From Streptococcus suis (lineage in GTDB: Bacteria; Bacillota; Bacilli; Lactobacillales; Streptococcaceae), in NCBI RefSeq assembly GCF_016743335.1, contig NZ_WCJE01000001.1:1-64000 (forward strand): DNA of 64,000 bases, given 5' to 3'. The translations under genes and the position numbers were made by a program. A model generated the notes under the pieces. That model worked only from the letters and a program-made list of their open reading frames with translations. It made no database searches and was not told the origin of the DNA. Shown one piece after another: positions 10,822 to 31,373 of this stretch; position 1 is the stretch's first letter; every line of letters starts with the position of its first letter.

Positions 10822-10907
10822 GAATCGGTCCGTTATTTTGCAAACTAGTTAAGGGCTGAGCTTGTGATAAACAATTATTCTATGTTAAAAAGGAGATAGG
10901 ATTCATC

Positions 10908-12501: not shown

Positions 12502-14139
<1,638 letters not shown>

Positions 14140-14147
<8 letters not shown>

Positions 14148-14167
14148 GAAGACCTAGTATTTTTTTG
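14140..14167 (+). terminator. Terminator of the fab/acc cluster
   Basis: AATACTAGG and CCTAGTATT pair around AAGA and are followed by a run of T. The accA TAG stop is part of the ascending arm. Confidence 0.85.
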
Positions 14168-14210
14168 ATAGATTTGATACAATGGATAAAATAATTTCAG
14201 GAGGTTTTCC

Positions 14211-14690
14211 ATGTTAGTAAAAGCAGATCTATCAAACGCAGAAGAATTGCTACCTATTCAGCACCGAGCATTTGCGGCTTTATATGAAACCTATCAGGAC
14301 CAGTACAACCCAGCCATTGAAACCATGGACTATTTCCAGTCACGCTTTGCACGACCAAATTGCAGCTACTACAAGATTGTCGAGGAAGGGCACACAGTCG
14401 GACTAGTACGAACAACGGTCGCTGAAGATGCTGACCAGGGCTAGGGCTGGCTAGGCTTGATTGGCATTGATCCAGACCATAGGGGAAAAGGCCATGGTCA
14501 TAAGGCTATGTTAGAGTTAGAACAACTTTATCCAACGGTTAAGAGGTGGGTGCTCTGCACGGTCTTACAGGAAGCAAAGTTAGTTACTTTCTATGAGAGT
14601 CTAGGCTACAAGGTCATTAAAACCGAGCCTGAGCAGGAGGATATGGATATGGTCTATATGGAGAAGTGGATAGGAGATTCAGATGCTTGA
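14211..14690 (+). pseudogene. GNAT-family N-acetyltransferase, interrupted by an in-frame amber codon
   Basis: The frame encodes a GNAT acetyltransferase of about 159 residues. The acetyl-CoA loop is DPDHRGKGHGHKAMLELE (R/QxxGxG) and the C-terminal part is LVTFYESLGYKV. A TAG at 14442-14444 follows residue 77, between YKIVEEGHTVGLVRTTVAEDADQG and GWLGLIGIDP. The local sequence GGCTAGGGCTGG contains a repeated AGGGCT, so a 6-base duplication could have introduced the stop; a substitution is also possible. The start has a strong ribosome site (CAGGAGG). The downstream half has an acetyl-CoA site but lacks the N-terminal strands. A sequencing error cannot be excluded. Confidence 0.85.
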
Positions 14691-15315
14691 ACAGTGTCGC
14701 AGATACCTGGATTATCAAGGAGTTCATTATTGCAAGCCTGAAAAAGCAGGAGCTTCGGCAAGCGACATGACAGCCTTAAGAAGCTTAGCACAGGCAGCAC
14801 GTAAGGAGTTTCAGACATTAAGTTTAGCCTTAGCTGAGCAAGTCGGTCCCTTGGTGCCAGAGAGAGTCAGTCAATGGATGAACCAAGCCCAGATTTGCAG
14901 ACCGCATTTTTGGACCTATTACCGCCTTCCCTCTGCTAGTCCATCGGCCCCAGCTTTCGCCATTCGTCTGTATGGTAAGGGAGTTGAAGCGGGGATTTCA
15001 GTAGAAGTTAGCTTCATTGAGCGAAAGAAGGTAGAGACCTCTCTGCTTCAGCAAAACCGTGTGCTGAACTGTCCGATTCAGGCACCGCTTTATTACTGGG
15101 TACAGGAGGGACAGGTATTTTATCGCCTGGATGGAACGGAGGAGAATAGGCAGATTTTACTAGAAGCTGTTGAAGCAGAGCGGGTTCGAAAAGTACTGGT
15201 CAAATATGACGTACCATTTGAAACGGTTGAGTCCGAAGAGGAACTGCTGGAACGCTTGATTCAGGGCTTTTCTCTACTAGAACCCTACTTGAAGATAACA
15301 CACCCCGCTGAATAA
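14683..15315 (+). CDS. Conserved protein of unknown function, about 210 residues
   Basis: This cytosolic protein starts MLEQCRRYLDYQGVHYCK and overlaps the end of the GNAT pseudogene frame by 8 bases, which suggests co-transcription. It has no signal peptide, membrane segment or clear catalytic motif. Notable segments are RPHFWTYYRLP, FAIRLYGKGVEAGISVEVSFIERK and a C-terminal acidic LLERLIQGFSLLEPYLKI. The overall look resembles the HI_0552-type family (annotated in some databases as a glucose-6-phosphate dehydrogenase-like family on weak grounds), but I only recall this resemblance and cannot confirm it. A double hairpin terminator follows. The function should be treated as unknown. Confidence 0.75.
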   Translation: MLEQCRRYLDYQGVHYCKPEKAGASASDMTALRSLAQAARKEFQTLSLALAEQVGPLVPERVSQWMNQAQICRPHFWTYYRLPSASPSAPAFAIRLYGKGVEAGISVEVSFIERKKVETSLLQQNRVLNCPIQAPLYYWVQEGQVFYRLDGTEENRQILLEAVEAERVRKVLVKYDVPFETVESEEELLERLIQGFSLLEPYLKITHPAE

Positions 15316-15360
15316 TCAGTGGGGTGATGGCAACAAACATCGTAAGGGTGTTTGTTTTTT
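15301..15360 (+). terminator. Tandem hairpins with T run
   Basis: A first hairpin pairs CACCCC with GGGGTG (15301-15326). A second pairs AACAAACA with TGTTTGTT (15332-15356) and ends in a T run. Together they end the GNAT/unknown-protein transcript. Confidence 0.75.
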
Positions 15361-15492
15361 AGTGTATATTGACAAATTCATTGAACTTTTGTAAAATTGT
15401 ATCACAACAACAGAACAGCTTGATTGACATTACGTGAAATCCTATAATAGATTGAAGGCACTCTATATGATGGAGCGGAAGAGGAGAAGAGT

Positions 15493-16158
15493 ATGGAGAA
15501 ACTAAGTCAAGGTTTGGAATGGATTGGTCGGAAGATTTGGTTATTATTAAGGATTTTTGGTCTCTTAGTGCTTGCTGTCCTTCCAAATCTGATTTTGGAA
15601 GAGTCCAAGTCACAAACTGCCTTGGTAATGGCTGGACTGGTGACACTGGGTCTTCTGGTCTTTTTCTGGTGGCGGGCTGAGAAAAATAATCTACCAGTCT
15701 GGGACAAAAACGTTCTTTCTTGGGACGGTCTGGCAATAGTCATACTAGCCTTTGCTACCATGCAACTGACAGATATGCTTGGTTTCTATTTGTTGGAATT
15801 GCAGGGGGCTACAACGACAGCTAACGACGCCTCCATCATCGAATCTTTGAAGGGAGTTCCTTTTGGGCTGGCACTCTTGACAACAGCATTTTTGCCAGCA
15901 ATTGCAGAAGAGATTATATTGCGGGGTTATTTCTTTAAGAAATTGTTTGGGTCGCAAGCAGTTGTTGGAATCATTGTTTCAAGCCTGCTTTTCGGAGCCC
16001 TTCATGGACCGACCGATCTTGCCTCTTGGCTGATTTATGGAGGTAGCGGTCTTATCTTTTGTGTTCTCTATCATAAGACGGGCTACTTGATTTATCCTAT
16101 TGCTGTTCATTTTATCAATAATGCCTGGTCGGTAGTGGCACTCTACTATTTTCAATAA
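15493..16158 (+). CDS. CPBP-family intramembrane glutamic protease
   Basis: The 221-residue membrane protein belongs to the CPBP (Abi) family of CAAX-type proteases. Diagnostic motifs are EEIILRGYFFKK (about residues 139-150), FGALHG (about 172) and HFINNAW near the C-terminus; they supply the glutamate and histidines of the active site. Several hydrophobic segments flank them. In Gram-positive bacteria such proteins act in bacteriocin self-immunity, surface protein processing or signalling, but no bacteriocin genes are visible here, so the substrate is unknown. The ribosome site GAGGAGAAGAGT precedes the ATG. It is a single gene between two terminators and borders the restriction island. Confidence 0.88.
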   Translation: MEKLSQGLEWIGRKIWLLLRIFGLLVLAVLPNLILEESKSQTALVMAGLVTLGLLVFFWWRAEKNNLPVWDKNVLSWDGLAIVILAFATMQLTDMLGFYLLELQGATTTANDASIIESLKGVPFGLALLTTAFLPAIAEEIILRGYFFKKLFGSQAVVGIIVSSLLFGALHGPTDLASWLIYGGSGLIFCVLYHKTGYLIYPIAVHFINNAWSVVALYYFQ

Positions 16159-16163
16159 GCAAC

Positions 16164-16196
16164 AGAAAAGACGATTCCAAGTGGAGTCGTCTTTTG
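16164..16196. terminator. Bidirectional terminator between the CPBP and recombinase genes
   Basis: AAAAGACGATTCCA and TGGAGTCGTCTTTT form a long hairpin with A and T runs at its sides. It can end both the CPBP gene (plus) and the convergent recombinase gene (minus). Confidence 0.75.
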
Positions 16197-16237
16197 CTAT
16201 TGTCAGTACAAGCCTTGTCACGATAGAGATAGGAATG

Positions 16238-17164
16238 TCAACAAAGTCCTGATAGTGACCGCATAATTAAATCAACATCTTGGTTTTCCAACTCACGAAT
16301 GATATGAAGATAGGTTTTTTGGGTCGTTGTTATGCTTGCATGACCAAGTCGTCTAGCAACACTTGCGATAGAAACCCCGGCAAATAATAAAATAGATGCA
16401 TGGGTGTGTCGCAGGGCGTGAATGGTGATGACAGGAAGATTTGCACTTAGGCAACGCTTTTCAAGAATGGCATTGATGGTAGAGTTGTAAATCCGCTCTT
16501 TCTTCACGAAAAGTAGGTCATCGGGTTGGGTGTGCTGCAATAAGTTGGCGAATTGGGTGCTGGTTTGCCAGTCGAGTTGGATTTTTCGAATTGAAGATTT
16601 ATTTTTTGTAGGTAAAAATCCGCCGTCTCCTTTATAATTCCATGTTTTATCAATGGTCAATAGCTGTCTATGAAAATCAAAATCTTGAGTAGTGAGAGCA
16701 AGGGCTTCTGAGAATCGAATACCTGTTTTAGCAATTAATAAGATGAGCCAATCCCAATTCAGCTCCTCTCCGAGACGTAATTCTTGTATCAACTGATGAA
16801 GCTCAAATTGGTTGAGGTATTTTGTCTTTTTCTTTCGAGGAAGTCTTCCTTTGATAATCACCTTACGTGTCGGGTCTCGTTCAATAATTCCTTCATCTAC
16901 AGCATCTAAAATAGCTCCTTTCAACTGGTGATGAAAATCCATGGTTGTCTGTCGTTCATGTGTTTTAGCATAGCTGTTAATCAATTCTTGGTAACGAACC
17001 CGATTCAAATCTTCCAACAACAGACTAGGAGCTAGTCTGATAAGCCACTGCAATGTCATTCTATATTTCTTGAGAGTGACTTCTCGAATGGCTCCTTCCT
17101 TGTAAATCCGTAGCCAATTTGCATAATAGTGATGGAAAAGCTGTTTTTCTTTTGATAAGTTCAT
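16238..17164 (-). CDS. Tyrosine recombinase / integrase of the restriction island
   Basis: The 308-residue protein is a phage-integrase-family recombinase. It has an N-terminal core-binding domain (LFHHYYANWLRIYKEG onward) and a catalytic domain with the conserved residues Arg150 (TGIRFSEAL), His249 and Arg252 (HALRHTHAS), His275 (RRLGHASITTT) and nucleophile Tyr285 (KTYLHI). The ATG at 17164 has a perfect AGGAGGT ribosome site. It is transcribed away from the hsd genes. No other phage gene is present and no attachment-site duplication was found, so I infer that it serves the hsd locus, as recombinases beside shuffling hsdS genes do in Streptococcus. Its target sites are unknown. Confidence 0.9.
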   Translation of the reverse strand: MNLSKEKQLFHHYYANWLRIYKEGAIREVTLKKYRMTLQWLIRLAPSLLLEDLNRVRYQELINSYAKTHERQTTMDFHHQLKGAILDAVDEGIIERDPTRKVIIKGRLPRKKKTKYLNQFELHQLIQELRLGEELNWDWLILLIAKTGIRFSEALALTTQDFDFHRQLLTIDKTWNYKGDGGFLPTKNKSSIRKIQLDWQTSTQFANLLQHTQPDDLLFVKKERIYNSTINAILEKRCLSANLPVITIHALRHTHASILLFAGVSIASVARRLGHASITTTQKTYLHIIRELENQDVDLIMRSLSGLC

Positions 17165-17180
17165 GGCAGAACCTCCTTTT

Positions 17181-17234
17181 TAATTTTTAAAAATTACATA
17201 ATTTATTGACAGATTTCCGAGGAGATGCTATACT
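17181..17234 (+). promoter_or_regulatory. hsd promoter and palindrome between recombinase and hsd genes
   Basis: TTGACA (17206-17211) and TATACT (17229-17234) are 17 bases apart and should drive the S-like/hsdR genes. A perfect 16-base palindrome, TAATTTTTAAAAATTA, lies at 17181-17196, between this promoter and the divergent recombinase start. It may be an operator or a recombinase core site. Confidence 0.6.
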
Positions 17235-17284
17235 TATTTTAGCGAAAAAATGTAATTATGAAAAATTTCAAAGAAAGGAAAATT

Positions 17285-17860
17285 ATGAAACTAGAAGAAT
17301 TGGCTCACTTTACGGGAGGTAGTTTACAGGTTCGCTTGGATACTACCAGCTGGGAAGATGCTAGAGACTATATCCTCTACAATCAGCAACATCATCAATT
17401 GGATGGTTATGAGGTGATAGAAGAAGTGATAGATAGTCGGACCGTGACGACAGATAGAGAAGTGACCTTGCTCGAGGAGGGAGACTTACTCTTTAGTTTA
17501 CTATCGGGGAAGGCTGTTTTAGTGAGAGCGGAGCACGCAGGCTTACTCTATACCCAGAACTATATCAAAATTGAGCCCATTGCAAAGCTGGATAAGGTCT
17601 TCTTGCTGTATCTGATCAATGAATCCTCGGCTATTAGACGGCAGTTTTACCAAAGCTTACAGGGGAGTGAGGTAATGAAATATACAGTCAAGCAACTGAA
17701 AAGTTTACAGCTAGGCGCCTTGCCTCCTTTAGATAGTCAGCAGAAACTAGGAAAGATTTATTTAGATGGATTAGTCTTACGGCAGAAGCGGCAAGCTTAT
17801 GCGCAAGGAGATTTTTTACGGCTAACATATTTGTTAAAGGAGGTTTACGCACATGAATGA
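17285..17860 (+). CDS. Small HsdS-like protein (single recognition-domain type)
   Basis: The 191-residue protein resembles one half of a type I specificity subunit. A recognition-domain-like region ends in SEVMKYTVKQLKSLQLGALPPLDSQQKLGKIYLDGLVLRQKRQAYA, which has the form of the HsdS conserved helix (PL..Q..LG..Y...L) seen after each recognition domain. I chose ATG 17285 because AAAGGAAA precedes it; ATG 17258 has no ribosome site. The gene overlaps hsdR by 8 bases, so it is translated with hsdR. It has no second domain and its sequence is unlike the recognition domain of the main hsdS. It could be a half-subunit, a regulator or a remnant. Confidence in the HsdS relationship is moderate. Confidence 0.65.
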   Translation: MKLEELAHFTGGSLQVRLDTTSWEDARDYILYNQQHHQLDGYEVIEEVIDSRTVTTDREVTLLEEGDLLFSLLSGKAVLVRAEHAGLLYTQNYIKIEPIAKLDKVFLLYLINESSAIRRQFYQSLQGSEVMKYTVKQLKSLQLGALPPLDSQQKLGKIYLDGLVLRQKRQAYAQGDFLRLTYLLKEVYAHE

Positions 17861-20800
17861 ATTAGCATTTGAAACAGAATTGATTCAATATATTACGACA
17901 GGGACTATTACACAGCCGGAGCACCTAGAAGGTCTAGAATGGTCTGTTAGTGATTCTTCGACCCTGTATGCAGTCAAATCTAAACTGTGGACTTATGAGC
18001 CGAGTATCAAGACAACGGAGCAATTATGGGAAAATTTTCGTAATATTCTCTGGCAACACAACCAACATCGATTGGACAAACCCTTGAGCGATACCGAGTT
18101 TGCTCAGGTCAAGCAGATTATTTCAGATCTGAAAACACCTTATGAGGCTGGTCAGTTTTTATATGGAATTAGCGGTGTTTCCGAATTGGAAATTACACTT
18201 GATGATGGACGGCATACATTTTTGACAGTATTCGACCAACGTAAGATAGGCGGTGGGGACACTGTCTACCAAGTGGTGAACCAAATTCGTAGGGCTCCTA
18301 AAATCCCTGGACGACGAGAATGTATATTCGATACAACCTTGTTGATTAATGGCTTACCTATTATTCAGATTGAAGAGAAAAAGGATACGATAGATGTGGA
18401 CAAGGCATTGAACCAAATGCATCAATATATCCAGGAACGGCAATATACGGATATTTTTTCTACCTTGCAGATTCTAGTCGCTATCGCCCCCAACAATGTT
18501 CGCTATATGGCCAATACCACTGCGGAGAAATTTAATAAGGACTTTGCTTTCCACTGGCAGCGTAAATCTGACGGTAGTAAAGTTCGGAATTGGAAAGAAT
18601 TTGCGGATTCCATGCTCAGCATTCCTATGGCCCATCAGATGGCGACCAACTACATGATCTTAGACGGGACACCGCAGAAACAAATGCTGAAAGTCATGCG
18701 TCCCTATCAAGTTTACGCCACTCAGGCGGTCATTGAGGGGATAAAAAAAGTCGATTTTGAATTAGGCTGTAACAAGGTTGGCTACATCTGGCATACGACA
18801 GGCTCAGGGAAGACGATCACTAGTTTTAAAACAGCTTGGCTGGCAAGTCGAATGCCCAAGGTAGACAAGGTTGTCTTTCTAGTGGATCGTATTGCTTTGA
18901 CCAATCAGACTAAGGATGATTATCTGGCTTATGATCCAGAAGCTGGGGAGAACAGTTTTGGTAGTATTCGAGAAACTCAAAATACCACAGCCTTGGCACG
19001 GCAGTTGACTAGTAAGGATAGTGGGATTATCGTTACTTCTGTGCAAAAATTGGATACACTGGTGAAGAGAAAATCTTTCAAATCACCAGATAAGCATATC
19101 GTGTTTATCGTTGACGAAGCTCATCGCTCAACTGGTGGAGATAGTTTTGCAGGGATTCAAAAGGCTTTTAAGAAAGCGGCTTGGATTGGCTATACAGGAA
19201 CTCCCAACTTAGATGATACAGGTGCTAGTCTGCGGACGCAAGATATTTTTGGCCCTCTTCTTCATGCCTACACTATTAAAAATGCCATTAGTGACCGCAA
19301 TGTGCTAGGGTTTAAGGTGGATTTTGAGACAACCATCGATCAGGAAAAACTAAAAACAACTTACTTACCAGATTTTTATCGGCAAAAATATCCGAAGTGG
19401 ACAAGTGCACAGATTGAAGAAAAGATTGCCAATCTAAGTCCAGATGATATGGATGATGCGGTGACTTCTAGCATCTATGACGAAAATCCAGAGCATGTTC
19501 GATTGGTAGTCGAAGATGTCTTCAAACACTGGGCAAATCGCTCTGGCAGTGGCCGTTACAATGCCTTGTTCACCACCCACGTAGGTGGAGGCAGGGCCTC
19601 CACACCCATGGCTATGATGTATTTCCGAGAGTTTCAACGAATCAACCAACTGCATCGAGAGCAAGGAGGTCTGGTCTTGAAGGTGGGAGTGACCTTTGCC
19701 TTGAATACTCAAAATAATGATAGCATGGTCGAGTCAAATACTGGTTTGCTTGAAGCTATTACGATCTATAACACAGAATTTGGGACGTCCTTTGGCTTGT
19801 CAGATGTTGCTTCTTATACAGAGGACTTGGTTAGTCGCCTCAATAGAACAGCCAAGGACAAGAACTACTTAGATTTGGTGATTGTAGTGGATCAGTTGTT
19901 GACAGGTTTCAATGCTCCTGAGCTCAATACTCTTTATGTTGACCGAACCTTAAAAGGAGCTAGTCTTATCCAGGCCTATTCTCGCACCAATCGTGTGGAG
20001 GATATGGATAAAAAACCTTTTGGACGGGTGGTCAATTACCGCTGGCCAGCCCATAATGAGAAATTGATGAATCAGGCCTTGGCCATCTATGCAGATGATA
20101 GTGCTGCCGATTTATCAGATGCGGAACAAAAAAATAACAATGAAAAAAATGGACTGGTGGCTAAGCCTTTCAAGGATGTATTTGCTGAAGTCAAACAAAC
20201 GGTCGACCAATTGAGAGAGTTGACGGGTGATTTCAATGATATTCCGAAGTCTGAGAAAAAGCGTGAGGCTATGTTAGAATTGCTCCGTGCTTACAATCAA
20301 GGATTGTCTAAGCTGAAACAGTATCAGCCAGAGGAGGTTGATGGGGTGATTGAAGGATTTGATTACAATCAGCCGGACCGCTTTATTGAAAGTTTGGGAA
20401 TGTCTGTAGAGGAAGAAAAACTTTTGACGACAGTCTTAGCCAACGAATTGAAACGAACCTTGGCGAAAGAACAAAAAGTTAGCATTCACCAAATTGAACT
20501 CAAGATGACTCACATCAAGGAAGTGACAATTGACTACGATAAATTGACCGAACTGGTTGAGCTCTTGCTGAATCAGGTTCACGAAGAGAAGATGGTAGAA
20601 GCCGCAGCTACCAGGGATGAATTGGATAGATTTGCAAGCGGTTTGGAAGACCTCAACTATGCTGACCAGATCCGTCAAACAGGGGATGCAATCTATCGAG
20701 GTGATTTTCCGACACAAGATATGAACTTTGCTTATCCAGTCAAGGGGATTGATAGTCAGAAGATTATCCAAGAAGCCTCGCATGTTTACATTGACAAGAA

Positions 20801-21059
20801 GCTCTTTGCTTTCCGAATCCAATGGGGCTTGACGGAGCATATCCGCAACCAAGAACTACGAGAGTTGTTGGCGAGACATCGATATGGTCAGAATGACTTG
20901 GATGATACCGGACACTTACGTACCTTGATAAAAGAAGCTAGTCGCGATTACCAGACCTGGGCAGAAGGTGATGCTGTTAAAGGCTTGAGTAAGATTCAGT
21001 ACCGTAATCAGTTGAGACAAGCACTATATGATTTGGCTGATGACTTGGTTGGTCAATAG
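17853..21059 (+). CDS. hsdR: Type I restriction enzyme subunit R (helicase-nuclease)
   Basis: HsdR is the ATP-driven DNA translocase and nuclease of the complex. The 1068-residue protein has an N-terminal nuclease domain with LPIIQIEEKKD (E-x-K, about residue 172), Walker A HTTGSGKT (about 314), the DEAH box IVDEAHRS (about 422), YTGTP (about 448) and a C-terminal helicase motif SRTNRVEDM (about 711). Length and order are those of a complete R subunit with no frameshift. It overlaps the small S-like gene upstream by 8 bases and is followed by a 107-base gap to hsdS that includes a new ribosome site. Confidence 0.95.
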   Translation: MNELAFETELIQYITTGTITQPEHLEGLEWSVSDSSTLYAVKSKLWTYEPSIKTTEQLWENFRNILWQHNQHRLDKPLSDTEFAQVKQIISDLKTPYEAGQFLYGISGVSELEITLDDGRHTFLTVFDQRKIGGGDTVYQVVNQIRRAPKIPGRRECIFDTTLLINGLPIIQIEEKKDTIDVDKALNQMHQYIQERQYTDIFSTLQILVAIAPNNVRYMANTTAEKFNKDFAFHWQRKSDGSKVRNWKEFADSMLSIPMAHQMATNYMILDGTPQKQMLKVMRPYQVYATQAVIEGIKKVDFELGCNKVGYIWHTTGSGKTITSFKTAWLASRMPKVDKVVFLVDRIALTNQTKDDYLAYDPEAGENSFGSIRETQNTTALARQLTSKDSGIIVTSVQKLDTLVKRKSFKSPDKHIVFIVDEAHRSTGGDSFAGIQKAFKKAAWIGYTGTPNLDDTGASLRTQDIFGPLLHAYTIKNAISDRNVLGFKVDFETTIDQEKLKTTYLPDFYRQKYPKWTSAQIEEKIANLSPDDMDDAVTSSIYDENPEHVRLVVEDVFKHWANRSGSGRYNALFTTHVGGGRASTPMAMMYFREFQRINQLHREQGGLVLKVGVTFALNTQNNDSMVESNTGLLEAITIYNTEFGTSFGLSDVASYTEDLVSRLNRTAKDKNYLDLVIVVDQLLTGFNAPELNTLYVDRTLKGASLIQAYSRTNRVEDMDKKPFGRVVNYRWPAHNEKLMNQALAIYADDSAADLSDAEQKNNNEKNGLVAKPFKDVFAEVKQTVDQLRELTGDFNDIPKSEKKREAMLELLRAYNQGLSKLKQYQPEEVDGVIEGFDYNQPDRFIESLGMSVEEEKLLTTVLANELKRTLAKEQKVSIHQIELKMTHIKEVTIDYDKLTELVELLLNQVHEEKMVEAAATRDELDRFASGLEDLNYADQIRQTGDAIYRGDFPTQDMNFAYPVKGIDSQKIIQEASHVYIDKKLFAFRIQWGLTEHIRNQELRELLARHRYGQNDLDDTGHLRTLIKEASRDYQTWAEGDAVKGLSKIQYRNQLRQALYDLADDLVGQ

Positions 21060-21166
21060 GTTGCGATTTTGTTGGATGATAGCGTATAATAGAATGGAAA
21101 TCGTCCGAAAAATTGCAAAAATAACTTTCAAAAATGAAACAAAAAGAAAGTAGAAAAGGAGGGACT

Positions 21167-22330
21167 ATGACAAAAGAAAAATCAACAGTACCACGATTGC
21201 GCTTCCCCGGATTCACGGACGCTTGGAAACAGCGTAAGTTGGGGGAGGTGGCGGTGGTAGTGATGGGACAATCTCCAGATTCAAAAAACTATACTAATAA
21301 TCCTTTAGACAATATTTTAGTTCAAGGAAATGCCGATTTAAAAAATGGGAATGTTGAACCAAGAGTTTGGACAACGCAAATTACAAAGATTGCAGAAAAA
21401 GGAGACATCATTGTATCGGTCAGAGCCCCTGTTGGAGATGTTGCCAAAACTAGATATAAGGTTGTTCTTGGGCGTGGAGTTGCAGGTATTAAGGGAAATG
21501 ATTTTATCTATCAGACTTTAATAAGAATGAAGCAGTTTGGTTATTGGATGAAGTTGAGTACTGGTTCCACTTTTGAATCAATAAATTCTGGTGATATTAA
21601 AAGTTCATTGATTCCCCTCCCCACCCTCCCCGAACAAGAAGTCATCGGCAACTTCTTCTCCGACCTAGATCAGCTTATTACTCTTCATCAGCGAAAATTA
21701 GATGATGTTAAAGAATTGAAGAAGGCTTTGTTACAGAAAATGTTTCCGAAAGGGAATGGAAACGATTTTCCTGAGCTAAGATTCCCAGAATTTACGGACG
21801 CTTGGAAACAGCGTAAGTTGGGGGAGGTGGCGGTGGTAGTGATGGGACAATCTCCAGATTCAAAAAACTATACTAATAATCCTTTAGACAATATTTTAGT
21901 TCAAGGAAATGCCGATTTAAAAAATGGGAATGTTGAACCAAGAGTTTGGACAACGCAAATTACAAAGATTGCAGAAAAAGGAGACATCATTGTATCGGTC
22001 AGAGCCCCTGTTGGAGATGTTGCCAAAACTAGATATAAGGTTGTTCTTGGGCGTGGAGTTGCAGGTATTAAGGGAAATGATTTTATCTATCAGACTTTAA
22101 TAAGAATGAAGCAGTTTGGTTATTGGATGAAGTTGAGTACTGGTTCCACTTTTGAATCAATAAATTCTGGTGATATTAAAAGTTCATTGATTCCCCTCCC
22201 CACCCTCCCCGAACAAGAAGCCATCGGCAGCTTCTTCTCCGACCTAGATCAGCTTATTACTCTTCATCAGCGTCAGTTGGATCATCTGAAACTGTTGAAA
22301 AAGGCGCTGTTACAGCAGATGTTTATATAG
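21167..22330 (+). CDS. hsdS: Type I specificity subunit with two identical recognition domains
   Basis: HsdS chooses the DNA target for restriction and methylation. The 388-residue protein has two recognition domains (about residues 17-159 and 210-352), each followed by a conserved helix (FFSDLDQLITLHQR...). The two domains are the same at the DNA level: 21215-21641 equals 21794-22220. Normal HsdS proteins carry two different domains, one for each half of an asymmetric bipartite target. This one should therefore read the same half-site twice, giving a symmetric (palindromic) target. I chose ATG 21167 for its GGAGGG ribosome site; an ATG 11 codons earlier lacks one. fic starts 12 bases after the stop codon. 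The frame is intact. Confidence 0.93.
   Translation: MTKEKSTVPRLRFPGFTDAWKQRKLGEVAVVVMGQSPDSKNYTNNPLDNILVQGNADLKNGNVEPRVWTTQITKIAEKGDIIVSVRAPVGDVAKTRYKVVLGRGVAGIKGNDFIYQTLIRMKQFGYWMKLSTGSTFESINSGDIKSSLIPLPTLPEQEVIGNFFSDLDQLITLHQRKLDDVKELKKALLQKMFPKGNGNDFPELRFPEFTDAWKQRKLGEVAVVVMGQSPDSKNYTNNPLDNILVQGNADLKNGNVEPRVWTTQITKIAEKGDIIVSVRAPVGDVAKTRYKVVLGRGVAGIKGNDFIYQTLIRMKQFGYWMKLSTGSTFESINSGDIKSSLIPLPTLPEQEAIGSFFSDLDQLITLHQRQLDHLKLLKKALLQQMFI
21215..22220 (+). repeat. 427-bp identical direct repeat encoding the recognition domain
   Basis: Copies at 21215-21641 and 21794-22220 are identical, at a 579-base offset. Similarity continues about 50 bases further with two substitutions (GTC/GCC and AAC/AGC). 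Perfect identity over 427 bp indicates recent gene conversion or duplication within hsdS. Confidence 0.9.
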
Positions 22331-22342
22331 AAAGAGGTCAGT

Positions 22343-23011
22343 ATGACATATTCGCAGGATTATTTAGATGACCTTCTGGTACGAATGGCCTATCATTCCA
22401 GCGGGATTGAGGGGAATACCATTTCTCTGCCTGAGACGGTTTCGATTATTTTGGAAAGCACGCTACCTGGCAAGCACAAGAGTATCCGTGAATTTTACGA
22501 GATTGAAAATCACAAACAAGCCTTCCAAGCTCTGCTATTTGCCTTAGATAATGGGGAAGAGCTGAGTTTGGGACTGGTTAAGGATATTCATGCCTTGTTG
22601 ATGGACCGCCTCCAGCATGATCGGGGGCAGTTTAAGTCGGTGCAAAACGCTATTATTGGTGCGACCTTCAAGACTGCATCGCCAGAGGAAACGCCTTTTC
22701 TTATGCAACAGTGGGTGGACAATGCCAACTATCGCTTGGGGTTGCCTTTGGAAATAGCTGAGCTGTTAGAGGTGTTGGCAGATGTGCATATTCAGTTCGA
22801 GCGTATTCACCCATTTAGTGATGGGAACGGTCGGACAGGACGGCTGATTTTGATGTTTCAAAGTATGCTCAAGTTGGGAGCGCCCGTACTGATTAGTAAG
22901 GAAGATCGAGCTCTTTATATGGAGTTGTTAGCGGAACAAGATGTGACTGGATTATCCCAATTACTCAAACGCTCCTTGGAGTTTGAACAAGAACGAAAAA
23001 AACAGTTTTAA
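22343..23011 (+). CDS. Fic-domain protein (AMPylase family)
   Basis: Fic enzymes move AMP or other nucleotide groups onto target proteins. The 222-residue protein has a complete core motif HPFSDGNGRTGR (about 155-166) and an N-terminal self-inhibition motif SSGIEGN (residues 19-25, of the S/TxxxE-G/N type), so it is a self-inhibited, intact class. It starts 12 bases after hsdS behind AAAGAGGTC and separates hsdS from the spare cassette. No antitoxin-like partner is seen; inhibition is built in. Its target is unknown. Fic genes inside hsd loci are seen elsewhere, but a functional link is not established. Confidence 0.9.
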   Translation: MTYSQDYLDDLLVRMAYHSSGIEGNTISLPETVSIILESTLPGKHKSIREFYEIENHKQAFQALLFALDNGEELSLGLVKDIHALLMDRLQHDRGQFKSVQNAIIGATFKTASPEETPFLMQQWVDNANYRLGLPLEIAELLEVLADVHIQFERIHPFSDGNGRTGRLILMFQSMLKLGAPVLISKEDRALYMELLAEQDVTGLSQLLKRSLEFEQERKKQF

Positions 23012-23092
23012 GTCGAGTTTTCAGAAAGCGGCTTTCAATCGGAACTATTATTTTTGCCTGAAAATACAATGAAAACCTTACTTTCACAACTA

Positions 23093-23619
23093 CTTGGAAA
23101 CAGCGTAAGTTGGGGGAGGTGGCTACTTTTGCCAAAGGAAACGGTTATTCGAAGAAAGATTTAGTTATTGAAGGTTCCCCGATTATTTTATATGGTCGTC
23201 TATATACGAAGTATGAAACGGTTATCTCAGAAGTTGATACTTTTGTATCTGTTGAAGATAATAAAAATAGTGTAGTGTATAGTGAAGGTGGTGAGGTGTT
23301 AGTACCTGCTTCGGGTGAAAGTTCACTAGATATTGCTAGGGCTTCCGTTGTTGCAAAAAAAGGCATAATCTTAGGTGGAGATATAAATATAATTCGATTA
23401 CATTCGGAGATTTTTCCTGTATTTTTAGCACTTACTATATCTAATGGAAAACAACAAAAAGGCTTGAGTAAACGTGCTCAGGGAAAATCTGTAGTACATC
23501 TTCATAATTCAGATCTGAAAAAGGTGGACTTGGATTTCCCCACCCTCCCCGAACAAGAAGCCATCGGCAGCTTCTTCTCCGACCTAGATCAGCTTATTAC
23601 TCTTCATCAGCGAAAATGA
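23093..23619 (+). pseudogene. Spare hsdS recognition-domain cassette without a start
   Basis: The frame reads TTWKQRKLGEVATFAKGNGYSKKDL and ends FFSDLDQLITLHQRK then a stop. Its first 31 bases (23093-23123) equal those at 21222 and 21801 in hsdS, and its last part (23538-23612) equals the hsdS sequence after each domain. The domain between these repeats differs from that in hsdS, so it encodes another specificity. No ribosome site or start codon precedes the frame, and the preceding bases do not match hsdS. The extra CGAAAAT after the 3' repeat matches the first hsdS copy, so the cassette came from, or fits, the first domain position. It has the same orientation as hsdS, with fic in between. 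Confidence 0.85.
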
Positions 23620-23663
23620 GATTTCGAGTAAAAAATGAAACAACATGAAAGGATTACAAAAAC

Positions 23664-25253
23664 ATGTCAAAAACTATTCAAGCCATTACCAATCAGATTT
23701 GGTCCATGGCCAATGAATTGCGAGGAAACATGGATGCTTCGGAATATAAGAACTATATCCTGGCCTTCATGTTCTATCGCTACCTATCTGAGCATCAAGA
23801 GCGTTTCTTGGTGGAAGATGAAATTATCAGTCCTGCTCCAGGGGAAACTGTTCAGGATGCCTATGCGCGAGAAGCAGTTGGGAATGACTTGGTGGAGTAT
23901 TTGGAAAATACAGCTTCTCACCTTGGATACGCGATTGCACCAGAAGATACCTGGGCAAGACTGGTAGCCAAAATTGATAACAGTGAGATTGTAGCGAGTG
24001 ACTACCAGACGATTTTCGATCATTTTAACGCCAATGTAGAACTCAATCAGGATGCTATGGAAGATTTCAGAGGCGTCTTTAATGACATCAATCTAGGTGA
24101 CTCTCGTTTGGGCAATTCAACGGTTGCGCGTGCAAAATCCTTGAACAGTATTGTGAAGCTGATTGACAGCATTGAGTATAAAAATGATGAAGGAAAGGAT
24201 ATTCTGGGAGAAATCTATGAGTATCTTATTGGACAGTTTGCCGCTTCGGCAGGTAAAAAAGGTGGAGAATTTTATACCCCGCATCAAGTGAGTAAGATTT
24301 TAGCCAAGATTGTTACTTTAGGTTTGGAAAAATCAGATACTAGCTTCTCTGTTTACGATCCAACCATGGGTTCAGGGTCTTTGCTACTAACAGTGCGTAA
24401 TGAACTACCTCAGGGCCAGCATATCAAATTCTATGGCCAAGAAATGAACACAACTACTTATAACTTGGCGCGGATGAACCTGATGATGCATCAGGTCGGC
24501 TACAGCAATATGATTTTGAATAATGCTGATACCTTAGAAAGTGACTGGCCGGACGGGGTCGATGAACTTGGAATCGATCAGCCACGTAGTTTTGATGCGG
24601 TCGTCGCAAACCCACCCTACTCTGCTAAATGGGACAATCGTGAGTCCAAATTGAAGGATCCACGGTTTATGGAATACGGTAAGTTAGCACCAGCTTCTAA
24701 AGCGGACTTTGCCTTTATCTTACACAGTCTTTATCATCTGAATAATACAGGGACCATGGCCATTGTTTTACCACACGGAGTGCTCTTTAGGGGAGCAGCA
24801 GAAGGTCATATTCGCAAACTGATTATTGAGAAAAATTACCTGGATGCAGTTATTGGCTTGCCAGCTAACCTGTTTTATGGCACAGGCATTCCAACCACTA
24901 TTCTAGTCTTCAAAAAAAATCGTCAGACCAAGGATGTATTCTTTATCGATGCGAGCAAGGAGTTTGAAAAAGGGAAGAACCAGAATCACCTTTCCGATGA
25001 CATGGTAGAAAAAATTGTAGAGACCTATCATAATCGTCAGTCTCTTGACAAATATGCTCATTTGGCATCAATAGAAGAAATTGTAGAAAACGACTACAAT
25101 CTAAATATTCCTCGTTACGTCGATACTTTTGAGGAAGAGGAAGAGATTGATCTCGGGCAAGTAACGCAGCAACTAGAACAAGATAGACTAGAGATTCGGG
25201 CACTAGAAGATAAGATTCGTCAACAATTAAAGACTTTGGGAGTAGATTTTTAG
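23664..25253 (+). CDS. hsdM: Type I modification methyltransferase subunit M
   Basis: HsdM methylates adenine at N6 in the target sequence. The 529-residue protein has the N-terminal HsdM helix domain, the AdoMet motif DPTMGSGSLLL (about residue 231) and the catalytic motif NPPY (about 315, in AVVANPPYSAKW). The C-terminus is helical and charged (VTQQLEQDRLEIRALEDKI), as needed to contact HsdS. The start ATG 23664 follows GAAAGGATTAC. Having hsdM last, after the spare cassette, means that deletion between the direct repeats would leave hsdM intact. It shares a terminator with convergent serS. Confidence 0.95.
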   Translation: MSKTIQAITNQIWSMANELRGNMDASEYKNYILAFMFYRYLSEHQERFLVEDEIISPAPGETVQDAYAREAVGNDLVEYLENTASHLGYAIAPEDTWARLVAKIDNSEIVASDYQTIFDHFNANVELNQDAMEDFRGVFNDINLGDSRLGNSTVARAKSLNSIVKLIDSIEYKNDEGKDILGEIYEYLIGQFAASAGKKGGEFYTPHQVSKILAKIVTLGLEKSDTSFSVYDPTMGSGSLLLTVRNELPQGQHIKFYGQEMNTTTYNLARMNLMMHQVGYSNMILNNADTLESDWPDGVDELGIDQPRSFDAVVANPPYSAKWDNRESKLKDPRFMEYGKLAPASKADFAFILHSLYHLNNTGTMAIVLPHGVLFRGAAEGHIRKLIIEKNYLDAVIGLPANLFYGTGIPTTILVFKKNRQTKDVFFIDASKEFEKGKNQNHLSDDMVEKIVETYHNRQSLDKYAHLASIEEIVENDYNLNIPRYVDTFEEEEEIDLGQVTQQLEQDRLEIRALEDKIRQQLKTLGVDF

Positions 25254-25261
25254 ATAAATGA

Positions 25262-25292
25262 AAAGAGCGAGTAGAATTTTCCTCGCTCTTTC
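25262..25292. terminator. Bidirectional terminator between hsdM and serS
   Basis: AAAGAGCGAG and CTCGCTCTTT pair around a 10-base loop, with T-rich sequence on both strands. Confidence 0.8.
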
Positions 25293-25302
25293 TTTGTATA
25301 TC

Positions 25303-26792
<1,490 letters not shown>

Positions 26793-26806
<14 letters not shown>

Positions 26807-27164
26807 ATAGATTCGAAATTTTTCTGCCGATTGTTTGCATAAGAGTCGGTAATTTCACAACTTTTTCATTGCCGATATGCTCACGGGCAATTTTTAGGAT
26901 TTTACCAGAATCTTTGGAGGCAAATAAGAAGCGACTTTTTTCTGTATAGATTTCAAAATGCCGACTGATTTTATTGTGATGTACATTGGCTCCGATGGAT
27001 TGAATCGAATCCCAAGGAATCTGGATATAGCGCTCGACATTATTGTCTGGGTAGAATTCAAGTGCTTTGTCCCCAATGAGAAATTTACCAACCTTACCAC
27101 CAAAGCCCATGTAGGAAACTCCTGTGGTTTGTAGTTCAACGCTTGTATTTTGTGATTGTGCCAT
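26793..27164 (-). CDS. manO: DUF956 protein of the mannose PTS locus
   Basis: The 123-residue protein belongs to the DUF956 family, which is found next to mannose PTS genes in streptococci and lactococci and is named ManO there. It is soluble with a basic C-terminus (TIGRKISNLFAKK) and a central WDSIQSIGANVHHNK segment. A regulatory role on PTS uptake has been proposed for the family; nothing in the sequence proves it. It lies downstream of manN after a terminator, so it is transcribed by read-through. Its 3' end contains the serS -35 element. Confidence 0.85.
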
Positions 27165-27194
27165 AGTGCTCCTTTCCTAGATGTTCATTATATC

Positions 27195-27216
27195 ATAAAA
27201 CCCCGCAAGAGCGGGG
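27195..27216 (-). terminator. Terminator after manN
   Basis: CCCCGC and GCGGGG pair around AAGA. On the minus strand the hairpin is followed by TTTTAT. It lies between manN and the DUF956 gene. Confidence 0.75.
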
Positions 27217-27223
27217 TCCTTGA

Positions 27224-28135
27224 TTACATAATGTTGAAGAAACGAGCAAGAATACCTACGATGAAGAGACCGATAATCATTGTGATTGGTGTTACTTTCT
27301 TCTTAAGCAAGTGCATGCAGAGGAAAGTAAGGAGAAGTCCCATCAAACCAGGAATCAAGCTGTCCAACTGACCTTGTAATGTTTGAGCTTGAGTTGGTTC
27401 AAGGCTAAGTCCGCTAAGAGCTTGACCAAGAATACCTTTCAACTCAGCACCAGTAACAGTACCTTCTGGGAAGACGATGTAAGCACCTTCTGACAATTGT
27501 TTAGCAGGAAGATTTACAGCGAAAGTAATTGATACCCAACGTTGAACTAGAACAGCGAGGATGAACATACCAAGGATGGATGCACCTTTAGTGATGTCTT
27601 GAAGGATACCACCAGACATGTCTTTAGTGATTTCGCTACCAGCCTTGTAACCAAATTCTTGAGTATACCATAGGAAGGCCATACGGATTGCGTTCCAACC
27701 AAAGAAGAAGATGATTGGTCCCATGATATTTCCAGATAGTGCAAGTGAAGCACCCAGAGCACCAAGGATTGGACGAACAGTAAACCAGAAAACTGGGTCA
27801 CCGATACCAGCAAGAGGTCCCATCATACCGATTTTCACACCTTGGATAGCTGTGTCATCGATAGCAGCACCGTTTGCGCGCTCTTCTTCAAGGGCAAGAG
27901 TTACACCAAGGATTGGTGAAGCAACGTATGGGTGAGTGTTGAAGAATTCCAAGTGGCGCTCAAGAGCAGCAGCTTGATCTTCTTTTTTCGTGTAAAGTTT
28001 TTTGATAGCTGGGATCATTGCATAAGCCCAACCTAAGTTTTGCATACGCTCGTAGTTCCAAGAACCTTGAAGGAAGGTTGAACGCCACCAAACTTTTTTA
28101 CGATCGCTTACGGAAAGTTGAATTTTTTCTGACAT
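27224..28135 (-). CDS. manN: Mannose-type PTS component IID
   Basis: IID and IIC form the membrane channel for glucose, mannose and related sugars. The 303-residue protein shows the IID family start (VWWRSTFLQGSWNYERMQNLGWAYAMIPAIKKLY) and C-terminal hydrophobic segments (GLMGLLLTFLCMHLLKKK, ITMIIGLFIVGILARFF). It is the last gene of manLMN, 17 bases after manM, and is followed by the terminator at 27195. The ribosome site is AAGGGAGATTC. Confidence 0.95.
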   Translation of the reverse strand: MSEKIQLSVSDRKKVWWRSTFLQGSWNYERMQNLGWAYAMIPAIKKLYTKKEDQAAALERHLEFFNTHPYVASPILGVTLALEEERANGAAIDDTAIQGVKIGMMGPLAGIGDPVFWFTVRPILGALGASLALSGNIMGPIIFFFGWNAIRMAFLWYTQEFGYKAGSEITKDMSGGILQDITKGASILGMFILAVLVQRWVSITFAVNLPAKQLSEGAYIVFPEGTVTGAELKGILGQALSGLSLEPTQAQTLQGQLDSLIPGLMGLLLTFLCMHLLKKKVTPITMIIGLFIVGILARFFNIM

Positions 28136-28152
28136 GATGAATCTCCCTTCTC

Positions 28153-28965
28153 TTAGTAGTCTTCAAGAATGTCGCCGATTGGGTCATTTGAACCAGCGTT
28201 ACCACCGTTACCTGATCCGCCTTGTTTAGAGAGGTTGAGGTAAATGAAAGCAATAGCAACACCGATGGTTCCAAGTGCAATCAGTGTCAATTGGCTGATA
28301 GCTGCAAGGGCAAAACCGATTGCGAAGAATGGCCATACTTCACGAGTCGCCATCATGTTGATAACCATAGCATAACCTACGGCAACAACCATACCACCAC
28401 CGACTGCCATACCGCCTTTGAGCCATTCAGGCATTGCTTCAAGGACACCTTGAACAGCTTCAGCTGGCATTGCAAGTAGAAGAGCTGCAGGAATGGCAAT
28501 ACGCAAACCTTGAAGGAGAAGAGCGAACAAGTGGTAACGTTCTACCGCAGCGAAGTTAGCATCTTTAGCAGCCTTGTCTGCACCGTGGACCAAACCAACT
28601 GAGATAGTACGAACGATCATTGTAAGGAAAAGACCAGCTACGGCAAGAGGGATAGCAGTTGTTGTTGCAACGGCAATACCTTCTGCTGAGAAGTCGCCAC
28701 CTTTGATCATGATGATTGCAGCAGCTACAGAAGCAAGAGCAGCGTCAGGAGCAACAGCTGCACCAATGTTTGCCCAACCAAGTGCAATCATTTGTAGAGA
28801 ACCACCAAGCATAACACCTGCAGCCAAGTTACCAGTCACAAGACCGATAAGGGTACAAGCTACCAATGGTTGATGGAATTGGAATTCGTCAAGGATACCT
28901 TCAAGACCTGCGAAGAAGGCAACGATGACAACGAGAATTGCAGAAATAAGTGTAATATCTGACAT
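28153..28965 (-). CDS. manM: Mannose-type PTS component IIC
   Basis: The 270-residue protein is the polytopic IIC channel subunit. It starts MSDITLISAILVVIVAFFAGLEGILDEFQFHQP and has the typical GLVTGNLAAGVMLGGSLQMIALGWANIGAAVAPDAALAS region (about residues 40-80). It also serves as receptor for some class II bacteriocins in related bacteria. It ends with a Gly/Asn-rich tail (SKQGGSGNGGNAGS). The ribosome site AAAGGATTACAAC precedes ATG 28965. It is the middle gene of manLMN. Confidence 0.95.
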   Translation of the reverse strand: MSDITLISAILVVIVAFFAGLEGILDEFQFHQPLVACTLIGLVTGNLAAGVMLGGSLQMIALGWANIGAAVAPDAALASVAAAIIMIKGGDFSAEGIAVATTTAIPLAVAGLFLTMIVRTISVGLVHGADKAAKDANFAAVERYHLFALLLQGLRIAIPAALLLAMPAEAVQGVLEAMPEWLKGGMAVGGGMVVAVGYAMVINMMATREVWPFFAIGFALAAISQLTLIALGTIGVAIAFIYLNLSKQGGSGNGGNAGSNDPIGDILEDY

Positions 28966-28996
28966 GTTGTAATCCTTTCTATACTAACAAACCGAT

Positions 28997-29989
28997 TTAT
29001 TGAACGTTTGCCTTGTTGATAAGTTCAAACAAGTCTTTCTTCGAATCGTTTGGTACTTTACGCACATCAAATTCAACGCCAAGGTCACGCAATTTTTCAA
29101 AGGTTGCAACGTCATCTTTGTCCATTGACAATACATTGTTAACCATTGTTTTACCAGTTGAGTGAGCCATAGAACCAACGTTCAATTCTTTGATTTCTAC
29201 GCCACCTTCGATTGCTTCAAGAGCTTCTTGTGGTGTTTCAAAGAGAATCAAGGCATGTGTGTTACCAAAGCGAGGGTCTTTAGAAACCTCAATCAATTTC
29301 TTGATTGGGACAACGTTCGCTTTCACGTTACCAGGAGCAGCCTGTTTGATGAGTTGTTTGCGCAATTCATCTTTCGCAACTGTATCTGAAGCAACGATGA
29401 TACGATCTGCCTTAGAAGCAGGAGTCCAACCAGTCGCCACTTGACCGTGCAAGAGACGAGTATCGATACGAGCCAAGTTGATTTTCAACTTGCCATCTCC
29501 GATAACAGTCCCTGGAGGGATTGCACCTTGTGGAGCGGCTGGTACTGCATCAGCTACTGGAGCAGCTTCTGCGGGTTGAAGTTCTTCTGGAAGAACCTTC
29601 ACACCATCCTTGGCTTCCTTGATAATGTTTGCCGCAACTTCTTCCACGCCAGCAGCAGCGTTAATCATACGCTCTGTGTAAGCTTGGATCAGCATTGGCA
29701 AGTTTAGACCGGTGATGATAGCAAACTTACGATCTGGATTTTCACCAGCTACACGGCTTGCTTGGTTGAATGGTGAACCACTCCAAAGGTCAGCCAAAAC
29801 CAAAACTTCATCATCGGCATCGAATGCGTCCACGGCAGCATTTAGCTTAGCGTATAAATCATCTGGACCTTCACTTGGCATAAAAGTAACAACTTGTACT
29901 TTTTCTTGTTCGCCAAAGATCATTGAACCTGATTGATGAATACCAGCAGCAAATTCGCCATGACTTGCAATAATGATTCCAATACTCAT
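28997..29989 (-). CDS. manL: Mannose-type PTS component IIAB
   Basis: The cytosolic IIAB protein passes phosphate from HPr to sugar. In 330 residues it has a IIA domain with the phosphorylation histidine His10 ([12 protein letters not shown]), a Pro/Ala-rich linker (about residues 138-160) and a IIB domain with His181 in [14 protein letters not shown]. The ribosome site AGGAGGAAC precedes ATG 29989. Its promoter carries a CcpA-type site. In streptococci ManL also takes part in carbon catabolite control. Confidence 0.95.
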
Positions 29990-30066
29990 TATTGTTCCTC
30001 CTAAATTTTTTCTAGTTCCTTTGAAATGTAAAACTATGAATAGGCTTACATTTTTTGAACTTGTCT

Positions 30067-30096
30067 ATTATAAAACGTTTTCAGTGCATTTGTCAA
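30067..30096 (-). promoter_or_regulatory. manL promoter with internal cre site
   Basis: On the minus strand TTGACA (30091-30096) and TATAAT (30067-30072) are consensus elements 18 bases apart. Between them lies TGAAAACGTTTT (30073-30084), which fits the core of the CcpA cre consensus. A bound CcpA would overlap RNA polymerase, so repression or tight tuning by glucose is likely. Confidence 0.75.
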
Positions 30097-30184
30097 GAGG
30101 AATTATGTTAAAAGTGCAAAATGTTTCCGAAACTTTTCATAATCGTATTTCAGAAAAGTGATAAAAATATGCAACGAATATGAC

Positions 30185-30212
30185 AAAAACCTGACAGTTT
30201 ATCAGGTTTTTT
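30185..30212. terminator. Terminator after the Cof-type phosphatase
   Basis: AACCTGA and TCAGGTT pair around CAGTTTA, with A and T runs on both sides, so it can act on either strand. It ends the minus-strand gene at 30218. Confidence 0.75.
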
Positions 30213-30217
30213 GATGT

Positions 30218-31030
30218 CTATAAAAATAGGTTTTCTAGTTCACGTGCGACACCATCTTCAAAATTAGCAAATGCTGTCAATCTGTCGGCATGTGGACGAA
30301 GTGTATCGCTACAATTTTTCATGGCATAGGCTGTTCCTGCTAGGTCTAGCATCTCAACATCGTTGTGCTCATCGCCGAAGGCAATTAAGTCGCTAGGAGT
30401 GGCTTGGTAGAGGTTAAGAACATAGCTCAGAGCGGTTGCCTTATTGACACCTTTTGCACAAGTTTCGAGGATATTTAATGGTCCTCCCCACGTATTGATT
30501 TCTAACTCATCTTTGAAATAGGCATTCATTTCTTTTGCAAGTTCATACTTATCAGTTGCACGAGTCTGCATAAGGATGGAATGAGGATCACTAGTGATTA
30601 ATTCAGGTTTGATGAGTGTATCTGGAGTAATCTGTTTAACTCCCATCAGAGCAGGATCAATCTTGTCTAAGTTCTTTTGAGTGATGTAGAATTTATTCTT
30701 GTATTCACCAGCAATAAAATCTGCCTCGAATGTTTCTTCTTCTTTTAGAAATTCGAGTAGGTATTTTTTGTCGATTAAAATATTTTGTTCCCATTGCCAT
30801 TTCTTTCCAGGGATGTGAACTAAAGAACCGTTGAAATTAATCATGGGAGTATCCAGTTCTAGTTGTTGGTAAAATTTTTCAGCCATTCGATAGGGGCGAC
30901 CTGTGGCGATAAGAACGGTGTGTCCTGCTTGGCGGACCTTCTTTATAGTTGAGATGGTATAATCAGATAATTGGCTATCATTATTGAGCAATGTGCCGTC
31001 CAAATCGATAGCTATAATTTTTTTCTTCAT
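30218..31030 (-). CDS. Cof-type HAD-IIB sugar/nucleotide phosphatase
   Basis: The 270-residue cytosolic protein is a Cof-subfamily HAD phosphatase. Motif I is IIAIDLDGTLLNNDSQLSD, motif II is VLIATGRPY, Lys in NKATALSYVL is motif III, and DLIAFGDEHNDVEMLDLAG is motif IV. Such enzymes remove phosphate from sugar phosphates or flavin precursors; the substrate cannot be read from the sequence. I chose ATG 31030 (MKKKIIAIDLDGT) because AGAAAGGA lies 12 bases before it; an ATG four codons upstream abuts that site. It is a single gene between the man operon and a divergent purine permease. Confidence 0.88.
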   Translation of the reverse strand: MKKKIIAIDLDGTLLNNDSQLSDYTISTIKKVRQAGHTVLIATGRPYRMAEKFYQQLELDTPMINFNGSLVHIPGKKWQWEQNILIDKKYLLEFLKEEETFEADFIAGEYKNKFYITQKNLDKIDPALMGVKQITPDTLIKPELITSDPHSILMQTRATDKYELAKEMNAYFKDELEINTWGGPLNILETCAKGVNKATALSYVLNLYQATPSDLIAFGDEHNDVEMLDLAGTAYAMKNCSDTLRPHADRLTAFANFEDGVARELENLFL

Positions 31031-31240
31031 ATTTAATAGCATTCCTTTCTAGATTCGTTATACTAGTTTTTAATAGTGAATAGTATTTAGGTAGTAGCTA
31101 GACTGCTGAGAAATTATTTTATGCGTCAAAGAATAGTACTTGTAGGTAGCCACATCTTGAACTAATAATTTCCAGTATAACAAAAGGAGATAATAAAAGC
31201 AAAGAAGCGATAAATTTTGTATAGATTTTTGCAAGCCTGC

Positions 31241-31355
31241 AACGTTCGGGATTTACGGATGTTTTAAGTTGAAAATCAATAAAATAATGTTTTCGAGATT
31301 AAAAAACTTGAAATTAGAATGTTTTTTGATTATAATGTTTTTATCGTTCGTAAAT
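31241..31355 (+). promoter_or_regulatory. Purine permease promoter region with PurBox-like sites
   Basis: A promoter TTGAAA (31308-31313) and TATAAT (31331-31336) has 17 bases between its elements. AACGTTCGGGATTT at 31241-31254 is, on the other strand, AAATCCCGAACGTT, close to the PurBox core CCGAAC used by PurR of lactic acid bacteria. A weaker copy (CGTTCG) lies at 31345-31350 near the start of transcription. The rest of the 343-base gap (31031-31373) shows nothing further, and no guanine or adenine riboswitch fold is evident. Confidence 0.4.
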
Positions 31356-31373
31356 TAAAGGAGAAATGAAAAA

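Follow-up and report, generated by a model that had tools for sequence, protein, structure and literature searches.

Two identical recognition domains in a single Type I HsdS of Streptococcus suis, at a locus with three recognition cassettes

A Type I specificity gene (hsdS) containing the same recognition domain twice was found in a 64,000-nucleotide stretch of Streptococcus suis DNA (positions 1 to 64,000 of contig NZ_WCJE01000001.1, assembly GCF_016743335.1; hereafter the window). The gene lies in a locus with three cassette slots, two of them expressed in hsdS and one silent downstream, which share direct repeats, and recognition domains of this locus have moved between slots from one genome to another. 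The best explanation, which we hold with fair confidence, is that domains are exchanged among the three slots, that the slot-1 domain was copied onto slot 2 and that the resulting HsdS would recognize a symmetric target.

The genes of the cluster lie on the plus strand in the order short S-like gene, hsdR, hsdS, fic, recognition cassette without a start codon and hsdM, and the cluster is flanked on the minus strand by the gene for an Xer-like integrase on one side and that for a seryl-tRNA synthetase on the other:

16238 to 17164, minus strand: tyrosine recombinase/integrase, XerC/XerD-like, 308 aa (Pfam Phage_integrase, E 2.7e-23; NCBIfam Xer models below their cut-offs)
17258 to 17860, plus strand: short S-like protein, 200 aa, with one weak recognition domain (Methylase_S, 23.2 bits, cut-off 22; PADLOC Specificity_I, E 3e-11)
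17853 to 21059, plus strand: hsdR, restriction subunit, 1068 aa, open (TIGR00348, 315 bits, cut-off 284.55)
21167 to 22330, plus strand: hsdS, specificity subunit with two identical recognition domains, 387 aa from the ATG at 21167 or 398 aa from the ATG at 21134 (Foldseek matches 1yf2, 5ybb and 3okg)
22343 to 23011, plus strand: Fic-domain protein, 222 aa, between hsdS and the silent cassette (Pfam Fic, E 6.2e-21; PADLOC PDC-S04, E 3.8e-113)
23664 to 25253, plus strand: hsdM, methyltransferase subunit, 529 aa, open (TIGR00497, 421 bits, cut-off 242.75)
25303 to 26655, minus strand: seryl-tRNA synthetase gene, long open reading frame with an approximate start (Pfam tRNA-synt_2b and Seryl_tRNA_N)

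HsdR, HsdM and a two-domain HsdS are encoded together and all three frames are open; judged by this gene content, the Type I restriction-modification locus is complete. The short S-like gene overlaps the start of hsdR by 8 bp, and its product may be a functional half-S because the gene was found in all 12 loci compared. The best PADLOC match of the Fic gene, PDC-S04, is a candidate defence gene. A second Type I locus was present in the same genome (L159, contig C34, 44244-53525), comprising hsdM, a RhuM-family gene, hsdR and a two-domain hsdS frame (399 aa) that overlaps a one-domain S frame (219 aa).

Self-comparison of the window showed the same 427 bp at positions 21215-21641 and 21794-22220, with zero mismatches at an offset of 579 and the nearest flanking mismatches at 21214 and 21642. 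Being divisible by 3, the offset keeps the reading frame, and a single open hsdS frame (ORF 21134-22330) contains both copies; in it the ATG at 21167 is preceded by the ribosome-binding-site-like motif AGGAGGG. Only two mismatches (21642 and 21651) separate the copies between 21641 and 21693, since the domain is followed by the conserved inter-domain helix. Pfam Methylase_S matched both copies (E 1.4e-20 and 2.1e-20), and the two halves of HsdS were 95% identical across 185 residues. Chance is no concern at 427 identical bases. The results bear out the claim of an initial annotation, made from the letters of the window, that this HsdS has two identical domains: one recognition domain occurs twice in the active S unit, without mismatch, in frame and in one gene.

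The silent third cassette, which the initial annotation did not mention, is central to the likely mechanism. The slots and their repeats are as follows:

21215 to 21641, plus strand: slot 1, recognition domain copy 1 with flanking repeats, identical to slot 2 (offset-579 comparison)
21794 to 22220, plus strand: slot 2, recognition domain copy 2, identical to slot 1 (offset-579 comparison)
23093 to 23639, plus strand: slot 3, silent recognition cassette with a different domain (Methylase_S, E 1.5e-11)
21222 to 21252, plus strand: 5' direct repeat of slot 1, 31 bp, identical to those of slots 2 and 3
21801 to 21831, plus strand: 5' direct repeat of slot 2, 31 bp, identical to those of slots 1 and 3
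23093 to 23123, plus strand: 5' direct repeat of slot 3, 31 bp, identical to those of slots 1 and 2
21618 to 21720, plus strand: 3' direct repeat of slot 1, 103 bp, also at 22197-22299 (88%) and 23537-23639 (89%)

The 3' repeat is exact over 76 bp between slots 2 and 3. Slot 3 has no start codon: no ATG, GTG or TTG was found from the in-frame stop at 23059-23061 to an internal TTG at 23110. An inverting phase-variable switch of the SpnIII/ivr or SsuCC20p type was considered and rejected, as the cassettes have the same orientation and no exact inverted repeat of at least 14 nt joins them. The search for inverted pairs of at least 25 nt found none in 14000-32000, that for pairs of at least 14 nt found 12 in 16100-25300 (the best 93% complementary), none of them linking two cassettes, and the SsuCC20p repeat was absent with up to 2 mismatches allowed.

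The locus was then compared with its relatives, as the initial annotation had proposed. A search for HsdM covered 279 genomes of the genus, themselves a subset of a larger group, and found it at 96-100% identity in seven besides the window's own. The integrase, short S, hsdR, hsdM and seryl-tRNA synthetase genes were in the same order in all seven orthologous loci, and fic and the third cassette were present in six of them, the remaining one (G247) having neither. Among five more distant loci (HsdM 71-75%), the integrase was found in four, the short S and hsdR in five and fic in none. The alignment showed that the seven orthologous loci carry other domains. Twenty-three cassettes were extracted from the eight loci (the window and the seven with HsdM at least 96% identical), and all of them, silent ones included, translated without a stop. 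Outer flanks were slot-specific, the 5' 25-mer was identical in 22 of the 23 cassettes and the 3' 20-mer in all 23; presence of these motifs is partly by construction because the cassettes were located by fuzzy match to them, which is not true of the domain identities or of the slot-specific flanks. The flanking motifs were still conserved in two genomes whose hsdR and hsdM differ from the window's by ~12-13%.

Six domain families had at least two copies among the 23 cassettes, and five of the six were present in more than one slot. The window domain occupies slots 1 and 2 in the window and slot 1 in G252 (99.2%). The EKI and SKR domains each occur in slots 1 and 2, and their order is reversed between G255 and G257 (99.3-99.5% identity), a clean TRD1/TRD2 swap. 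Exchange between silent and expressed positions was seen for LKER (slots 2 and 3; slot 2 of G259 equals slot 3 of G258 over 418 bp) and for FSIK (slots 1 and 3; 98.9%). The window's slot-3 domain was found in slot 3 only (also in G259, 92%) among the eight genomes. A mobile core between slot-specific flanks points to repeat-mediated movement of domains. In G247, slot 2 has the 3' flank of slot 3, and fic and slot 3 are missing, as expected if a crossover between direct repeats had occurred. The HsdS of this genome (L163) is 401 aa long and stops partway through the last helix, after the repeat-mediated deletion.

The window genome was the only one of the eight with one domain in both hsdS slots: none of the seven orthologous hsdS genes held the same domain in slots 1 and 2, and no other same-genome pair of cassettes reached 62% nucleotide identity. 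Because only one of the eight loci is symmetric, the symmetric state may be transient. The suggestion of the initial annotation that the duplicate is one of several switching states stands in part, as a difference between genomes over the seven orthologous loci.

The sequence flanking the two copies bears on how the duplicate arose. Among the eight slot-1 copies, the variant GGCAAC just downstream of the domain was found in two, those of the window and G252, suggesting that slot 1 was probably the source of the slot-2 copy; in slot 2 of the window the downstream motif is GGCAGC and the left flank is slot 2's own. The two window copies show 0/427 differences, and the window and G252 differ at 3/391 positions in the domain and by ~1.4% in hsdR and hsdM. 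A duplication dating back to the split from G252 should by now show 3.3 to 6.0 differences (P 0.038 to 0.0025), values that assume no ongoing homogenisation, as conversion could keep erasing differences. The proposal of recent copying between the two positions is therefore supported by the occurrence of the same domains in different slots, by the slot-specific flanks and by complete identity within the window against 99.2% to G252.

In the proposed mechanism, the recognition domains would be exchangeable cassettes in an intact hsdR-hsdS-fic-silent cassette-hsdM system. Each of the three slots would keep its own outer flank and share the 5' and 3' direct repeats, at which recombination would move or copy domains between slots. 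The slot-1 domain would recently have been copied onto slot 2 in a tract bounded by the repeats, leaving the slot 2 flanks in place; the copied DNA may have come from the same chromosome, from a sister or from a different cell. From these comparisons we infer slot 1 to slot 2 copying, with homologous recombination as the agent.

Another candidate agent is the adjacent tyrosine recombinase, which might have made the duplicate by site-specific shuffling, as in the pneumococcal tvr (SpnIV) locus. An Xer-like recombinase is indeed present in all seven orthologous loci, the window repeats are direct, and tvr, in the accessible text of its description, works through a recombinase, direct repeats and circular intermediates (PMC6265443). 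However, excision and reintegration would move or insert a domain and would not, on their own, overwrite one domain with a duplicate of another, no recombinase site was recognized at the window locus, and the parts available of a study of the S. suis locus report no demonstrated role for its integrase (PMC5198162). We regard the recombinase as an unlikely agent. The window and tvr are alike in direct repeats, a recombinase, same-orientation domains and a nearby Doc/Fic-family gene (PMC6265443, in part); they differ in that tvr excises and reintegrates domains, whereas movement at the window locus is seen as differences between genomes. A Doc-Phd pair lies beside the shuffling domains of tvr, and the window's Fic gene lies between hsdS and the silent cassette.

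It is possible, although we think it rather doubtful, that active shuffling among three slots makes the S. suis core locus a switch with symmetric states as part of its regular output. If so, any domain copied into both expressed slots would give a palindromic methylome and change the marking of genes and of incoming DNA.

Symmetric hsdS genes were also looked for more widely. The survey started from 124 S-like frames in the first 80 loci plus the window; the 45 frames shorter than 330 aa were set aside, and in each of the remaining 79, which came from 76 loci, one half of the protein was compared with the other. Besides the window, 2 of 78 frames had halves at least 60% alike, L047 from Veillonella (96%, 517 bp exact) and L031 (72%), in a sample that is biased because the query itself is symmetric. 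The window domain family was found at E <1e-50 in 14 Streptococcus genomes of 284 searched, and among these the window, G154 (L154) and G209 (L155) had it twice in one hsdS frame. Similarity between the halves is 60-61% in G154 and G209, and the domain segments share 93 and 88 of 125 residues, suggesting a likely long-lived symmetric or near-symmetric specificity; they are not independent cases because their second domains are nearly identical (123/125). A 567-aa frame of a two-contig genome (G082; L152, ~10018-11646) contains three exact tandem copies of a same-family domain with a period of 576 bp, and was excluded as a symmetric HsdS because it does not have the usual S N-terminus. Taken over the frames surveyed, these comparisons indicate that symmetric HsdS by duplication is recurrent but rare. 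The plasmid search with the single domain as query gave 127 records. With full-length HsdS it gave 998 records, in which symmetric genes were not separable because both query halves align to one target domain; one plasmid record (H8) with two matched places had one S gene under the match. A literature search, with subscription journals outside its reach, found no Type I hsdS with two identical domains, which is no proof of absence.

The duplicate might instead reflect an assembly artefact or a mixed culture: with several slot arrangements in the population, an assembler working from short reads could have run the same domain into both positions. The assembly is a draft in 110 contigs, the 427-bp copies are longer than typical short reads, and the swapping of domains between slots among relatives makes a mixed culture plausible; moreover, the 12 contigs inspected were all at least 810 bp, and a small orphan contig with an alternative domain may have been dropped. 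Against this, the assembly contains no orphan recognition domain, all six Methylase_S hits fall in two loci (on C1 and C34), and the 5' repeat (up to 2 mismatches) was found at the three known sites only. Exact in-frame duplications also occur elsewhere, in L047 (on a draft contig) and in the three tandem copies of the two-contig genome. We consider an artefact quite improbable.

The two domains of an S subunit lie in opposite orientation, and dimers of half-subunits read palindromes. The AlphaFold2 model of the window HsdS, built from a 22-sequence alignment, had a pLDDT of 88.4 and a pTM of 0.67, and with a pTM of only 0.67 the placement of the domains is uncertain. The model showed two alike domains and two helices (154-192 and 347-385) of 39 residues each. 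Foldseek matched the model to solved S subunits (14 matches with E of 0.001 or less; 5ybb, 1yf2 and 3okg at the top), and the recognition domain resembles that of the solved S subunit in 5ybb/3okg. A symmetric bipartite target is the best prediction for this HsdS, on the strength of the half-subunit and NgoAV/BstXI precedents and of a model with two equal 39-residue helices. The product would be a covalent near-homodimer, and its target would be of the type XYZ-Nn-Z'Y'X', with each strand methylated through recognition of the same half-site.

Several precedents are described in the accessible portions of earlier reports. Symmetric targets are given for truncated EcoR124I and EcoDXXI, NgoAV and BstXI (PMC3874165), GAAN7TTC for EcoR124INT (PMC3320862) and ACCN5GGT for a half-S of CC398 (PMC6158711), and a Helicobacter pylori strain has a palindromic Type I-like motif with no enzyme assigned (PMC3983042). 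NgoAV and the EcoR124I and EcoDXXI truncations are like the window HsdS in using the same domain twice for a symmetric target, in our case a predicted one (PMC3874165, in part), but they consist of two separate one-domain chains, whereas both window copies are in one chain. The BstXI S subunit comes closer in having one chain and two domains that read the same half-site of a symmetric target, again predicted in our case (PMC3874165, in part); its two domains are similar, not identical.

The symmetric state could alternatively be a dead or idle allele, with hsdS expressed and a complex that neither assembles nor methylates. This would accord with S. suis 861160, in which the same system has single-domain hsdS genes and, in the text available, was judged probably inactive on account of them (PMC10790761). 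However, all subunit genes of the window are open, HsdM and HsdR score above their family cut-offs, both inter-domain helices of the model are intact and of equal length, and engineered symmetric enzymes are described as active in the accessible part of the report (PMC3320862). An idle allele is unlikely in our estimation, and a functional HsdS with a symmetric target is the reading we prefer.

By synteny, the locus corresponds to the S. suis "core" Type I system SsuPORF1588P. That system is described, in the portion of the report available, as present in 110 of 116 S. suis isolates, beside the seryl-tRNA ligase gene and with an integrase and an extra S (PMC5198162); the window locus likewise adjoins the seryl-tRNA ligase gene and has an integrase and an additional short S. 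It differs from the published descriptions found, whose accessible text contains no silent third cassette, slot movement or duplicated domain. The locus also resembles the domain movement (DOMO) type of hsdS in H. pylori, in which direct repeats flank each domain and domains occur in both slots (PMC3077401, in part): direct repeats flank both recognition domains of the window hsdS, and three families (the window/G252 domain, EKI and SKR) are common to slots 1 and 2 among the relatives. DOMO involves another family and other repeats, whereas the window has a Type I hsdS with a silent cassette as third slot. The same report, in the part available, describes an H. pylori allele with the same domain in both slots, HPV225_1544 (PMC3077401), which is a Type IIG allele and not a Type I hsdS.

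This natural HsdS, a full-length Type I subunit whose two domains are identical, offers a clean test of the inverted half-site rule, so that one motif determination would yield the half-site of the domain directly. In addition, a core Type I locus of S. suis that was judged probably non-functional in one strain has a silent third cassette and slot exchange. The locus also bears on SSU1589, a disease-associated PCR marker of S. suis with published primers and a product listed as 347 in the accessible table (PMC6595460). These primers match the orthologous hsdS of G247 exactly, spanning 346 bp from slot 1 into slot 2, which adds to the likeness between the locus and SsuPORF1588P. In G262 the forward primer alone matched, in the silent slot and with one mismatch, and the remaining six loci, among them that of the window, had no fit for either primer even when 4 mismatches were allowed. 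The primer matches indicate that the SSU1589 marker reports one particular hsdS domain pair, so the marker sits on a movable combination. The domain that carries the forward-primer site in G247 is also found in the silent slot of G262.
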